33,725 nucleotides of DNA from a virus. The position numbers were made by a program, and so were the translations under genes. This document shows, piece after piece, positions 13,209 through 32,375 of this stretch. The DNA is taken from positions 1 through 33,725 of the IMG/VR virus record IMGVR_UViG_3300035113_000009. One strand, written 5' to 3'. Numbering within the stretch: the first letter of the stretch is position 1; every line of letters starts with the position of its first letter. The notes under the pieces were generated by a model that had not been told where the DNA came from, ran no database searches, and saw only the letters and a list, made by a program, of their open reading frames with translations.

Positions 13209-13399
13209 ATTTTTCGCCTTACAGGTTCTTTCTCCGCGTGAATATCGCCATCCTGCGCTGGTTTATCTGGATGGCAGATTATCAGCAGGATTCGTTGCGC
13301 CGCATGGACTGGCCGCGATCCCCGATGATAGACGACCGGAAAGCGCAACTGGACGGCGAGCTGATCCAATGCGAAATGCGGCTGCGGTATCTGTCATGA
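13205..13399 (+). CDS. Small protein with N-terminal hydrophobic helix, 64 aa
   Basis: The GTG start is coupled by GTGA overlap, and AGGA lies eight bases upstream. The N-terminal FFLRVNIAILRWFIWMA could be membrane-associated; the rest is a charged helix (DRKAQLDGELIQCEMRLRYL). It is coupled by ATGA to the acyltransferase gene. The role is unknown. Confidence 0.6.
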   Translation: MNFSPYRFFLRVNIAILRWFIWMADYQQDSLRRMDWPRSPMIDDRKAQLDGELIQCEMRLRYLS

Positions 13400-14223
13400 C
13401 CCTATCCATATTCCACACCCGCGAATTCTTCGACCTGCATCAAGGCACGCATTACCTGCAATCTGGCAACACGGTCATGCCGGTATGGTTGCAGGATGGC
13501 CTCGCTTATTCCCCGTTGCGCGGTACATTCGGCGGATTTGGCGGCGAAGTGTCGTTGGCCGCGTATGAGGATATTGCGAATCAACTGATGCTGATAGGCG
13601 CGAAGGAATACCGGATCAAGCTCGCCCCATCGTCGCACGATCAGGAAGCGTTCGCGCTGGCGTTTAATGTGCTGAGTCGCGCCGGATTCCAAGTTATCGG
13701 GCAGGAGTTGAATTACGACCAGCCGATTAATCTGATACTGCCATTGGCAGAAGGAAACAGAAAGCGGCTTGCCAAGTTAAAACGCGAGGCATTCACTGCT
13801 TACTATATGCCAATAGAAGAAGTCTATCCTGTGATTGCAGAAAACCGGCAACGCAAGGGAAAACCTATGTCGATGCCACTTGATGCGCTTATGGAAATGG
13901 AACGAATATTTCCCGGACGCTTGCATGGTTTTGGAATTACTTCGATAGGCGGTTCGCTTGTTGCTGGGGCAATTTGTATTGATCTGAATCACCAGACTCG
14001 CTATATTTTCATGTGGGGCGATGGACCAAACATGGAAGTATTTTCGCCGGTAGTATTGTTGGCTAACTTCATCCATTGGCATTCTCTTTCTTCGCTGTTT
14101 AGCTTGCTCGACGCCGGAACATCTACCGAAAACGGTATCCCGAACTATGGGCTGATTCAGTTCAAGAGAAGTCTCGGCTTCCGCGAGTCGCTGAAACTCA
14201 CGATGGGGTTGCGCCGTGAATAG
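13396..14223 (+). CDS. FemAB/GNAT-like acyltransferase
   Basis: The 275-aa protein resembles the FemAB/CelD-type GNAT proteins, which transfer acyl or aminoacyl groups. Visible elements are an N-terminal RGTFGGFGGE segment, a central KRLAKLKREAF with GSLVAGAICIDL, and the C-terminal IPNYGLIQFKRSLGF typical of the second GNAT lobe. The ATG at 13396 overlaps the previous stop (ATGA). In a block with a ketoisomerase and an aminotransferase it could acylate an amino sugar, though it does not resemble the hexapeptide-repeat acetyltransferases usual in Fuc3NAc pathways. That role is inferred. Confidence 0.7.
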   Translation: MTLSIFHTREFFDLHQGTHYLQSGNTVMPVWLQDGLAYSPLRGTFGGFGGEVSLAAYEDIANQLMLIGAKEYRIKLAPSSHDQEAFALAFNVLSRAGFQVIGQELNYDQPINLILPLAEGNRKRLAKLKREAFTAYYMPIEEVYPVIAENRQRKGKPMSMPLDALMEMERIFPGRLHGFGITSIGGSLVAGAICIDLNHQTRYIFMWGDGPNMEVFSPVVLLANFIHWHSLSSLFSLLDAGTSTENGIPNYGLIQFKRSLGFRESLKLTMGLRRE

Positions 14224-14467
14224 ACGTGGGTTCCTTTCTAGCTGCATCGCGCTATGTGTAGCGCCAGCAATCGTTCGCGCCGATTCGTTAATGCGAATAA
14301 TTCCGATTGAGACTGAAATAATCCTGCCGCCAACCGGATCGCTTTTGACGATAGACATGATTACCAGAGAGGCATTAAAAGTTTTAGAAACAAACATGCT
14401 TTTTAACAAATCAATCAGCAGGTATTACGAAGATGCTCACACCCAATTTTCTATCCGCAGATATTGA
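14216..14467 (+). CDS. Tat-signal protein with a coat-protein N-arm-like C-terminus, 83 aa
   Basis: The protein starts (GTG) with MNRRGFLSS, a twin-arginine motif followed by a hydrophobic stretch (CIALCVAPAIV) and RADS, a plausible signal peptidase site after residue 22. Its last part, LLTIDMITREALKVLETNML ... ISRYYEDAHTQFSIRRY, aligns with the first ~50 residues of the coat protein encoded at 31098-32375 (LLTISMITNESLMVLENELT ... LRTYDESFG ... LNVRRP). It overlaps the acyltransferase gene by eight bases and the next gene by 35. The function is unknown; the family seems to occur in other phages, by recollection. Confidence 0.65.
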   Translation: MNRRGFLSSCIALCVAPAIVRADSLMRIIPIETEIILPPTGSLLTIDMITREALKVLETNMLFNKSISRYYEDAHTQFSIRRY

Positions 14468-15272
14468 CGGCTTCCGTTTTGACAACGGCATGTGCTTGTT
14501 GGAGTTCGACACCATCAGTCGAACCGACACTCCCGACCTATCGACCTATACCGGCGCATACAAGGGCTGCGGGCGCTTTACGTCGTTGGTCGAGTCCTAT
14601 ATCCGCGAGCGATTCGACATCGTGGAGATTCCTACGCCGCAGATGCTGTTGCCCGGGGTCGTCGCCCGTGATGCCTGTATCACCAATTACTTCGATGCTG
14701 CCGATCCAAGCAAGCTGCGCTACTTAGTCGCAGAAACGATGGCGCGCAAGATACTCGGCATTCCCTACAAGACGATTGCCGATGGTTACTACCGTGCCGG
14801 ATGGTGCCCGCCGCCGCATATCAAAAAAGGACTGCGGCCCGTCACGTTCCACTACCCGAAAGCCGGATACTTCGGCATCATGGCCGAAACGCTAGGCGTC
14901 ACACCGAGCGCGAAACGCGACGATCTGGACACCGTAGAACTTTCGCTGGCCTTCGTGACGGGCATTCCCGATATCGTCGCCAGCGTGCTATTCGTGGTCA
15001 CTGCATCGCCAATTTACCGAGTGACTAACCAAGATACCTGCATCGGCATGGATGGCAATTGCCGCATGGTGGTCGAGTATCGCGGGGCGTGCGATGTTGC
15101 TGCCGAACTTGATCGGCTAGGGATATGCTCATACCCGACCGTGCGCGGAACGAAAACGATACGCTACCCGTTGCCGACTGTGGCGAATCTTCGGAAAGCG
15201 CCGGACCTGTATGCCAATACCTTTAACGCGCAAATACTGAAAGGAATCATCAATGCAAAAACTGTCACCTGA
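14433..15272 (+). CDS. Unknown protein, 279 aa, in sugar-modification block
   Basis: The protein starts MLTPNFLSADIDGFRFDNGM and includes AETMARKILGIPYKTIADGY and GWCPPPHIKKGLRPVTFHYP. No family is recognised, and no Rossmann, GNAT or PLP signature is visible. A hydrophobic stretch at IPDIVASVLFVVTAS might be a buried strand-helix or a membrane-associated segment. It overlaps both neighbours (35 and 20 bases), so it is expressed with the acyltransferase and methyltransferase. It may be a new enzyme of the block or an unrelated insertion. Confidence 0.65.
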   Translation: MLTPNFLSADIDGFRFDNGMCLLEFDTISRTDTPDLSTYTGAYKGCGRFTSLVESYIRERFDIVEIPTPQMLLPGVVARDACITNYFDAADPSKLRYLVAETMARKILGIPYKTIADGYYRAGWCPPPHIKKGLRPVTFHYPKAGYFGIMAETLGVTPSAKRDDLDTVELSLAFVTGIPDIVASVLFVVTASPIYRVTNQDTCIGMDGNCRMVVEYRGACDVAAELDRLGICSYPTVRGTKTIRYPLPTVANLRKAPDLYANTFNAQILKGIINAKTVT

Positions 15273-15936
15273 CGCCTATGCTGAACTGCAACTGCCCGAC
15301 CAGCATATCGAGGACATCATGCAGGAGTACGAGGCAAAATGGATACTGGAACAGACGCAGGGCTGCAATACCATTCTGGAACTCGGATGGGGAAGCGGAA
15401 TAATTGCCAAGGCGCTGCACAATGCTGGGAAATCTGTTCTAGTTCTTGATGGTTCTAGAGAAAGTTGCCATATCGCTTATCAACATCATGGCATTATGTC
15501 TATGCAAACCATGTTTGCAGATTTCACCACTTCACAGATATACGATTGCGTTATTGCATCATTCGTGCTTGAACATGTAGAAAATCCAGTTGATCTGCTT
15601 TTGCAATGCGGGAAATTGGCAAAAAAACTGATTGTCGTTGTCGGCAATGCCAACAGCTACCATCGGCAATTAGCGGTGCAGATGGGATTGCAACCGTGTC
15701 TAGATTCACTATCCGCACGCGATGAGCAAGTGGGCCATTACCGTGTTTATGATTTTGCTACGATAAAAAGCCAACTAAATGTCACAGGATGGACTCCTAT
15801 GCATTGGAAAGGTCTGCAATTCAAGCCTCTCCCAAATAGCATGATTACGAACTTCGATCCCAAGCTGATCCGCGCCATGTGCGAGATAGACGTGCCGTTC
15901 GAGTGCGCTGCGAATTTAATGATTGTCTGCAAATGA
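15253..15936 (+). CDS. Class I SAM-dependent methyltransferase
   Basis: The 227-aa protein has motif I ILELGWGSG (41-49), an acidic strand-2 end (VLVLDGS), IYDCVIASFVLEHVENP as motif IV/post-motif and a helical C-terminal cap. This is the fold of small-molecule O-, N- or C-methyltransferases such as UbiE- or TylF-like enzymes, not a DNA methyltransferase. AAGGA lies eight bases before the ATG. It is coupled by ATGA to the aminotransferase gene, so a sugar intermediate is the likely substrate, by context. Confidence 0.8.
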   Translation: MQKLSPDAYAELQLPDQHIEDIMQEYEAKWILEQTQGCNTILELGWGSGIIAKALHNAGKSVLVLDGSRESCHIAYQHHGIMSMQTMFADFTTSQIYDCVIASFVLEHVENPVDLLLQCGKLAKKLIVVVGNANSYHRQLAVQMGLQPCLDSLSARDEQVGHYRVYDFATIKSQLNVTGWTPMHWKGLQFKPLPNSMITNFDPKLIRAMCEIDVPFECAANLMIVCK

Positions 15937-16529
15937 ACGCATACAAGGTAGTCGAAGATTTCGAGGCCGCGCTTGCGGAATATACTGGCGCGCCGTTCGT
16001 TGTCACGACGAACAGTTGTTCAATGGCGCTGCTGGTTGCGTGTAGCTATGGGGCGCAATGGCATAAGGATGAACTTATCATTATCCCCTCTCGCACCTAT
16101 TGCGCAGTTCCACAGTCAATAATCCACGCTGGATTTCGCGTCGATTTCAGCGATACGGACTGGCGCGGAGAATATCGCCTTTATCCTTCGATAGTATGGG
16201 ATTCCGCCCGCCGCTTCACTTCCGGCATGTATCGGCCCGGCCAGATGCAGTGCGTGTCATTTCAGACCAGTAAAATCCTCGGCCTAGAGCAAGGCGGGGC
16301 GATCCTATTGGATGATCCAGAAGCGGACCAGTGGCTCAGGAGGGCGCGTTTTGATGGCCGATTGAACGCATCAGAGAAACTACCAAAGCAGATCGGCTGG
16401 CATTGCTATCTCTCGCCAACAGTCGCCGCACTCGGCTTGCAGCACCTCGCATGCCTGCCGCGCCATAACGAGGATCAAGCCGGATCGAAGGATTTCGCGG
16501 ACTTGTCAAAACTCGATATATGGACCTGA
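15933..16529 (+). CDS. DegT/DnrJ/EryC1-type PLP aminotransferase, half-length
   Basis: The protein follows the large domain of sugar aminotransferases: TTNSCSMALLVACSYG near the N-terminus, DELIIIPSRTYCAVPQSII, VWDSARRF (Asp90, where PLP-binding Asp is expected), and SFQTSKILGLEQGGAI with the putative Schiff-base Lys114. It ends at 198 aa after a QHLACLPRHNED helix, whereas family members are usually about 360-400 aa, so the C-terminal domain is missing. No continuation is seen in other frames. Normally these enzymes aminate keto-sugar nucleotides. Whether this short form is active is unknown. Confidence 0.75.
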   Translation: MNAYKVVEDFEAALAEYTGAPFVVTTNSCSMALLVACSYGAQWHKDELIIIPSRTYCAVPQSIIHAGFRVDFSDTDWRGEYRLYPSIVWDSARRFTSGMYRPGQMQCVSFQTSKILGLEQGGAILLDDPEADQWLRRARFDGRLNASEKLPKQIGWHCYLSPTVAALGLQHLACLPRHNEDQAGSKDFADLSKLDIWT

Positions 16530-16885
16530 TTCAGTTCCCGAAGATTCTCGACGCGCGCGGCAATCTGACCTTTGTCGAACGCCTGCCATTCGCCATTAAA
16601 CGCTGCTACTGGCTATATCACGTTCCCGATGGCTCACTGCGCGGGGGCCATGCACATCGCACGCTGGATCGCGTATTTATAGCCGTAGCGGGCAGATTCA
16701 AGCTCAACGGAATCGAACTCAGCAATCCGTGGGAAGGACTTCGCGTGCTGCCGATGACATGGGTCGAACTGACCGATTTCAGCAACGGAGCAGTGTGCCT
16801 GGTACTTGCGAGCGCGCAATACGACGAATCGGATTACATCAGGGATCGCGTGGAATTTAATCGCTTGACGCAGATATCCGCATAA
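16520..16885 (+). CDS. FdtA/QdtA-type dTDP-4-keto-6-deoxyglucose 3,4-ketoisomerase (WxcM-like cupin)
   Basis: The 121-aa cupin has the characteristic RGNLTFVE, PFAIKRCYWLYHVP and RGGHAHR (His44, His46) segments, the histidines of which act in catalysis in FdtA-type enzymes. These convert dTDP-4-keto-6-deoxyglucose to the 3-keto isomer that a DegT-type enzyme then aminates, the first steps to dTDP-3-amino-3,6-dideoxyhexoses. It overlaps the aminotransferase gene by ten bases, which fits pathway order. The dTDP-sugar precursor would have to come from the host, as no RmlA/RmlB gene is in the window. Ketoisomerase versus a related epimerase is not settled by sequence alone. Confidence 0.85.
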   Translation: MDLIQFPKILDARGNLTFVERLPFAIKRCYWLYHVPDGSLRGGHAHRTLDRVFIAVAGRFKLNGIELSNPWEGLRVLPMTWVELTDFSNGAVCLVLASAQYDESDYIRDRVEFNRLTQISA

Positions 16886-31097: not shown

Positions 31098-32375
31098 TTA
31101 AGCCGCGACTCGGCAGGCAAGTTCCTGATAGAGCGGAGCCCATCCGAATAGCACATCGAAACGCGCCGGTATCTGGTCGTTGTTGATGGTGTATTGTCGG
31201 ACAACGCGGATCGAGATTCCCGCTTCCTTGGATGCCGCTCGCCCTGCATACACGACACCAGCAGGCAATTCCAAATCCGCCATCGCGCAGGTAAATGCGT
31301 TTTTGTGGAAAAGGATGTTCTGCGGCGAAGTATTGCCGGTTGCCGATACCCCGATGCTATAGGGGGTCACGGTTGCGGTTGCCGAAGTGCTGGTAATGCT
31401 CACGTTTTGGAACTGGCCTGCGGTTATGATCGCCGGAGCAATCGTCAGCGTGCCGGTCGAGGAACCCGTACCGCTGAAATCCGACCGTACAACGAACGTG
31501 CGCGGCTGCGTGCCGTAAATCTGGCGATTCTGCGGATTCACCGGGAAAACGTTGGCAATACTGATGATGTCGCCCTTTTTCAGCGTTACCGTTGCACCGA
31601 ATGTCAGCGTTACGTTGCTGGTTTCAGCCCATCCGGTAGCAATGCCGATGGAGGTCGTATTGACGGTCAGCGTGGAAGCGGACGATGCAGCCCATGCCCC
31701 GGTAGTCTGGGTATTCACGTTCTGATCCATCTTCCAGTTCATGCCAGCCGAATCGCGGCCCATCAGACCCTTCATGTACTGCGATCCGATCTTGTCGCTC
31801 GGCATGAACAACCCTTTGAGGCTATCCACAATCGATGCGCCAGTAAAGGGCTCGATTACAACAGCGCGGGAACCGTCACGCGGCGCAGCCTCAGCATCGA
31901 GGTAGGCACCAGCAGTCAGATACGTCAGCAGGGCCGTAGGCGGTGTACCATAGGTGCCGACGATGTTCGCCGTGGAGTTTTTCGCCATTTGCAGACCGAT
32001 ATAATCGACGCGGTTTGCAACCGCAGCGACCGAGGGCTTAATGACGTTTTCGGAGAAAGCACCCAGAGACAGGCGCAAATCCTTGGTAGTGAAGGCGGTA
32101 TCGACGTGGAACTGGTCGCCGTACTTGGTGGTATCGCCGACAACGACTGGAATCGAGGTCTGGTTGTAATCCTCGATGCTCAGATTCGGGCCGGATGTAC
32201 CGATGAAACGCGGGGGGCGGCGAACATTCAACGTATCGCCGATTTTTGCACCATCGACGCCGAAAGACTCGTCGTAGGTACGAAGAACCTGACTGGTAAA
32301 GGTCAGTTCGTTTTCGAGCACCATAAGGGATTCATTGGTGATCATCGAAATCGTAAGCAGGGTATCTGTGCTCAT
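31098..32375 (-). CDS. Major coat protein, P22 gp5-like
   Basis: The 425-aa length matches P22 coat. The N-terminal arm (LLTISMITNESLMVLENELT, GDTLNVRRPPRF), the VVVGDTTKYGDQFHVDTAFT segment, a Thr/Ser-rich insertion region (about 240-340) in place of the P22 I-domain, and the C-terminal FHKNAFTCAMADLELPAGV and RFDVLFGWAPLYQELACRV identify it. It forms the icosahedral shell. GGAG lies five bases before the ATG, and a strong promoter is at 32485-32513, consistent with high late expression. The N-arm has a partial copy in the protein at 14216-14467. Confidence 0.92.
   Translation of the reverse strand: MSTDTLLTISMITNESLMVLENELTFTSQVLRTYDESFGVDGAKIGDTLNVRRPPRFIGTSGPNLSIEDYNQTSIPVVVGDTTKYGDQFHVDTAFTTKDLRLSLGAFSENVIKPSVAAVANRVDYIGLQMAKNSTANIVGTYGTPPTALLTYLTAGAYLDAEAAPRDGSRAVVIEPFTGASIVDSLKGLFMPSDKIGSQYMKGLMGRDSAGMNWKMDQNVNTQTTGAWAASSASTLTVNTTSIGIATGWAETSNVTLTFGATVTLKKGDIISIANVFPVNPQNRQIYGTQPRTFVVRSDFSGTGSSTGTLTIAPAIITAGQFQNVSITSTSATATVTPYSIGVSATGNTSPQNILFHKNAFTCAMADLELPAGVVYAGRAASKEAGISIRVVRQYTINNDQIPARFDVLFGWAPLYQELACRVAA

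Follow-up and report, generated by a model that had tools for sequence, protein, structure and literature searches.

Pieces of phage head proteins carried on a Tat-type leader: a recurrent gene family in uncultured phages and its possible action as a decoy

Phage coat proteins can be recognised by their hosts: CapRel-SJ46 is triggered directly by a coat protein, and Lit is activated by the coat peptide Gol (PMC9712102). In the coat protein gp5 of phage P22, the N-terminal arm (N-arm) contacts scaffold via D14, E15 and E18 (PMC9965877). Virion assembly can be blocked by a prophage product, as reported for Tab (PMC10884400), and partners that lack a signal of their own can be exported by Tat (PMC4273604). 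Here we describe phage genes in which a constant Tat-type leader is fused to pieces of the phage's own head proteins; the fusion recurs, its sources lie in several coat families, and the pieces are anciently diverged with their amino acids kept. From the sequences we infer Tat targeting and decoy action, and we tentatively propose, as a possibility short of an even chance, that the family acts as a membrane-targeted or exported decoy.

The window, by which we mean the whole 33,725-nucleotide stretch analysed (IMG/VR virus record IMGVR_UViG_3300035113_000009), carries on its plus strand, at 14216..14467, an ORF that starts with GTG and encodes an 83-aa protein, VNRRGFLSSCIALCVAPAIVRADSLMRIIPIETEIILPPTGSLLTIDMITREALKVLETNMLFNKSISRYYEDAHTQFSIRRY, whose parts were delimited from the translation and an alignment of 11 such proteins. 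Residues 1-28 (14216..14299, plus strand), MNRRGFLSSCIALCVAPAIVRADSLMRI, form a conserved Tat-type leader with a twin arginine, a hydrophobic run and a V-R-A signal-peptidase-like site, cleavage being predicted after A22 (nucleotide 14281). The linker PIETEIILPPT (residues 29-39; 14300..14332, plus strand), partly common to other members in the family alignments, is followed by a segment resembling the coat N-arm (residues 40-74; 14333..14437, plus strand) and by nine C-terminal residues without significant coat similarity (14438..14464, plus strand), before which the profile match stops. The first-pass annotation had carried the likeness to coat through to a final RR, a pairing that can be made only across a gap of some nine residues and that lacks significance when taken alone. 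The ORF overlaps the stop of the upstream gene at its 5' end and the start of the next gene at its 3' end, within a tight plus-strand cassette. This dense cassette, at 13369-16885 (plus strand) of the window, also contains a 284-aa acyltransferase-like ORF (judged by eye), a 279-aa ORF without a family, a methyltransferase, a short DegT-type aminotransferase and an FdtA-like enzyme, and is possibly devoted to surface-sugar modification.

The phage's own coat gene, of P22 type and 425 aa in length, lies on the minus strand at 31098..32375 (PF11651, E=1.7e-29; phrog_283, E=4.7e-61). Its N-arm region, residues 3-37 (32265..32369, minus strand), aligns to residues 40-74 of the 83-aa protein without gaps and with 16 identities in 35 positions (E=6e-6 against the ORFs of 11 records), a score that 2,000 shuffles never reached. 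Run over 271 loci and the window, a profile of 152 P22-type coats finds the ORF at E=4.2e-8 among 46,068 stop-to-stop segments, coat positions 7-42 being the sole stretch matched; the remaining matches shorter than 300 aa with E<1e-4 comprise coat genes truncated at contig ends or interrupted by inserts, three leader ORFs belonging to this family, and a single copy of the coat arm that lacks the leader (L056:2979). When the whole ORF was compared by tblastn with 50,697 phage records, all 28 matches began at query residue 42, and all fell in annotated coat, capsid or head genes or in unnamed genes equivalently placed in sister phages. AlphaFold models, of modest confidence, begin a helix at residue 46 of the ORF and, in the coat, at the homologous residue, 9. 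The claim that a Tat signal and a coat-arm segment share one 83-aa product thus holds under both profile and structural comparison, and the ORF is confirmed, at the level of sequence, to combine a Tat-type signal with the N-terminal arm of a P22-type coat; the rest of the HK97-fold coat, with its P-, A- and I-domains, is absent from it. The matching segment is short (35 residues), yet E=4e-8 and the shuffles rule out chance similarity. A misassembled contig should show near-identical DNA, yet identity to the own coat is 51% in DNA, and the recurrence of the fusion in many contigs refutes both explanations, which we give next to no weight.

Two oddities of coat genes were seen in passing. The leaderless copy just mentioned (L056:2979-3266) is a 96-aa ORF that has coat N-arm sequence and a hydrophobic C-terminal stretch, lies about 2 kb upstream of its own coat, and is the only such fragment seen. 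Elsewhere the coat gene is split within its N-arm (L179:13600-14540 in G006; also L157, L158, L161, L163 and L165), in G006 by about 0.85 kb that includes an HNH-like ORF (13753-14439) and so points to an intron or homing element; a group I intron was considered and rejected, as no Rfam match was obtained.

The leader is the constant part of these proteins. Its family motif, RRxFL...APAIVRAxSLM, is present in the window gene, and the twin arginine, accompanied by a hydrophobic run, is invariant across all aligned leaders. Between close members 73-87% of leader residues agree, whereas identity of the leader DNA is mostly 54-79%; conservation is thus at the protein level. Over 398 genomes of one bacterial phylum, a leader profile recovered two family members and, in eight other genomes, eight longer proteins of secreted type, which by eye include a PhoD-like phosphatase, substrate-binding proteins, an oxidase and a deacetylase; these matches support, short of proving export, a working Tat signal. 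The curated TAT_signal model (PF10518) gives members 12.6-15.8 bits, under its cut-off of 22.7, and searches of Pfam (PF10518 included), PHROG and NCBIfam returned no match for the window protein. Among the 50,697 deposited phage records there was no convincing match to the leader: one leader query gave weak matches in a single Agrobacterium phage (E=6) and another gave none.

Uncultured phages were scanned with the 83-aa protein and then with alignments of the leader alone, giving 122 distinct leader genes after removal of near-duplicates. The survey for Tat and coat-arm fusions that the first-pass annotation had called for was thus productive: ten further distinct leader/N-arm proteins came to light, together with many more in which the leader precedes a different piece of a head protein. 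At least 29 of the 122 tails carry head-protein pieces in frame, the window gene's being of its own coat type; this is a lower bound because the phage's own coat is often not in hand. The sources are the coat N-arm (11, window included), other coat regions, coats of three further families, and the portal. The P22-type coat profile matches 17 of the 122 tails (E<=0.005), eleven in the N-arm (coat positions 4-67) and the others at 90-130, 237-302 and 359-398, approximately the P-domain helix, I-domain and C-terminal P-domain of P22 gp5 on the published domain map (PMC9965877), a distribution that is partly a detection effect because divergence leaves the N-arm and C-terminal regions the easiest to detect. 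In each of the 11 N-arm tails the piece starts close to the beginning of the coat.

The predominance of the N-arm (11 of 17 P22-type tails) favours the main rival to the decoy, namely that membrane-tethered fragments bind the coat, scaffold or portal of a related competitor, a superinfecting phage or a satellite, and so poison capsid assembly. A glutamate equivalent, by residue numbering, to the P22 scaffold-contact residues (E52 in the window protein) is invariant in 11 of 11 leader/N-arm proteins, and Tab offers a precedent for prophage-encoded blocking. However, the fragments have the phage's own coat lineage as their source and the gene is in some phages part of the head operon, so that self-poisoning would need control; the phage's own heads would also be endangered, and integrase is absent from most records. 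We consider such interference unlikely, though worth keeping in view.

Comparison of each tail with the long ORFs of its own locus carries the argument about sources, since the PHROG scan of all 122 tails is insensitive to such short pieces (best head-protein E, 6e-5). At E<=1e-3, 20 of 122 tails had an own-locus match, whereas only 1 of 120 control ORFs drawn from these loci did (p=1e-5). The tail of L383 is 75% identical to its own phrog_334 coat over 36 residues; those of L400, L403 and L420 match their own phrog_212 coats and that of L330 its own phrog_1357 coat. In G007 the match is to the C-terminal end of the own coat, again phrog_1357. The tested own-locus matches also include portal or connector proteins (phrog_156 and phrog_332). 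In G001, which has a gpT-like coat, one tail matches the own coat (2 of 2,000 shuffles) and a second weakly matches the gpT profile.

Other leader proteins have tails of a different kind. In L019, L027, L036, L041, L069, L091 and their relatives the same leader precedes a longer tail, LHHIPERWATVWGVG..., which is conserved across several contigs and matches no family and none of the phages' own proteins; this group forms a stable branch of the leader family. Four more (L404:10001; L325:8983; L005:5001, in G005; L102:2795, in G013) have tails resembling pieces of tail proteins, with a spike-like GDGxxDDT motif (seen by eye), a LamG-bearing tail that resembles its own phage's 1467-aa protein, and a match to tail sheath phrog_205 at E=0.02, so that the association of the leader with virion pieces may extend beyond heads.

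The first-pass annotation had called the window's segment a copy of its own phage's coat arm, which is upheld for the family and less clearly for the window. Of 166 coats ranked by similarity to each of the ten P22-type tails whose own coat is in hand, the own coat placed 2, 1, 2, 49 (the window), 7, 22, 40, 18, 20 and 9; uniform ranks are rejected at p=1.4e-5, and the window's own coat is only 49th of 166. That rank would agree with a fairly recent capture of tails from the coats of other phages of the same host, the other phage being the target. Against this, own coats rank first or second in three phages, and identity to the ranked tails reaches about 62% at most among the coats in hand, so that these tails are not recent captures from anything sampled; we hold such heterologous capture to be highly improbable.

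Pooled over 16 pairs of tail and own head protein, pS is 0.74, which is saturated, and pN is 0.31. Every significant coat match is in frame with the leader, the other five frames giving no coat-profile match at E<0.5, a result that also rejects out-of-frame capture of coat DNA. A silent cassette for gene conversion of the coat was likewise rejected, DNA identity to the own head gene (45-75%) being judged too low. Because synonymous sites are saturated, amino acids are kept and the matches are in frame, these are apparently old proteins whose tails have probably been under long-term selection as head-protein-like sequence, although the same pN and pS could also arise if the tails derived from the coats of unsampled relatives. 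The tail might instead be a passenger: the leader alone would matter, as a small membrane or exported peptide, and tails would be swapped by illegitimate recombination, often from abundant head genes. Such turnover fits a conserved leader that precedes unrelated tails, and bears on the roughly three quarters of tails for which coat-profile and own-locus comparison found no source. It is the reading least consistent with the frame and substitution pattern, and N-arm pieces that begin at about the first coat residues in every case also speak against it; we judge it quite unlikely.

The leader gene has no fixed place. It lies between terminase and portal in G002, G004, G006 and G008, just upstream of the coat in L402, and on the strand opposite the head genes in the window, L378, L400 and L420; it is sporadic among phages of the same portal type. 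A constant gene between terminase and portal was therefore rejected, as the arrangement holds in four phages and is absent from nearly all loci with that portal type. The same four phages, and the likely scaffold-contact residue kept in the N-arm pieces, would suit an assembly factor of the phage's own that recruits scaffold or coat to the inner membrane, where heads would be assembled or nucleated. A single role of this kind would not predict pieces that vary from phage to phage (N-arm, P-domain, I-domain, C-terminus, portal) and can be permuted, nor a sporadic gene, and we find it very unlikely. Integrase was found in only 4 of 32 records, which may be incomplete, making lysogenic immunity a less likely role.

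Several tails are composite. One tail of L373 joins coat 359-398 to 99-129, two P-domain parts in permuted order; that of L335 joins N-arm and I-domain pieces, and those of L400 and L378 join coat to portal pieces. Nine records have at least two leader genes each (L373, G001, L383, L326, L321, L344, L400, L387 and L381), and L373 has three, every one with its own coat piece, of which the third is a weak match (E=0.03).

Among several readings of function we prefer the decoy. The leader would direct the peptide to the Tat translocase of the inner membrane, to be retained there or exported; by imitating parts of virion proteins, the peptide would titrate whatever recognises those parts, the most plausible targets being host immune sensors that respond to coat or portal. 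Since Tat moves folded complexes, a bound factor might also leave the cytoplasm with the peptide. A coat-derived decoy would have to resemble the own coat, could use any recognised segment, and would gain from several copies; mosaics, permuted pieces and tandem copies fit an arms race over several recognised segments. We count for the decoy the 122 distinct genes, the own-locus matches (20/122 against 1/120), the high own-coat ranks, pS of 0.74 against pN of 0.31, the in-frame coat matches, and the position next to terminase and portal in four phages, which we read as probable expression there. The wider family pattern favours decoy or titration without proving either. A broader version, in which mosaics of own coat and portal pieces on a Tat signal are, in many uncultured phages, an evolving counter-defence by self-mimicry, we regard as rather doubtful; the factors intercepted would be those recognising virion proteins, possibly carried out of the cytoplasm. 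Against the decoy, known coat-sensing proteins are mostly cytoplasmic, so that the benefit of exporting a decoy is not obvious; no source was identified for about three quarters of the tails; the window's tail is nearer to many other coats than to its own; and pN/pS could stem from the coats of unsampled relatives.

A literature search found no description of Tat-leader head-fragment proteins, and no coat-derived phage decoy against CapRel-SJ46 or Lit. With 122 distinct members in metagenomic phages and a leader that lacks a convincing match in 50,697 deposited records, the family is apparently large and undescribed. One constant export leader carrying pieces of the own coat or portal, in several coat families, is unexpected and directly testable whatever the mechanism. 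If the tails are decoys, their sequences would reveal which parts of virion proteins are sensed by bacteria in nature; if they block assembly, they would be natural peptide inhibitors of capsid formation.

Each known system shares one side of this design. With P22-type coats (PF11651/phrog_283) the window protein has in common the N-arm, coat residues 3-37 being homologous to its residues 40-74, but it has a Tat leader in front and none of the rest of the coat, and cannot be a coat subunit. With bacterial Tat signal peptides the leader shares the twin-arginine motif, the short hydrophobic run and the V-R-A cleavage-like site, and its APAIVRA core occurs in secreted-type bacterial proteins as well; unlike those signals, it is unusually conserved and its apparent cargo is a head-protein piece of 40-60 residues. 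Tab, the tail assembly blocker of Pseudomonas prophages, is likewise phage-encoded and comparable, by concept only, if the leader proteins interfere with assembly; it acts on tails, is expressed from prophages, and is not described in the excerpted account as a Tat-leader virion fragment (PMC10884400). CapRel-SJ46 and Lit/Gol, in which host immune proteins recognise coat or even a short peptide from it (PMC9712102), are host systems, unlike the phage-encoded leader proteins, and the proposed decoys would mimic their targets.
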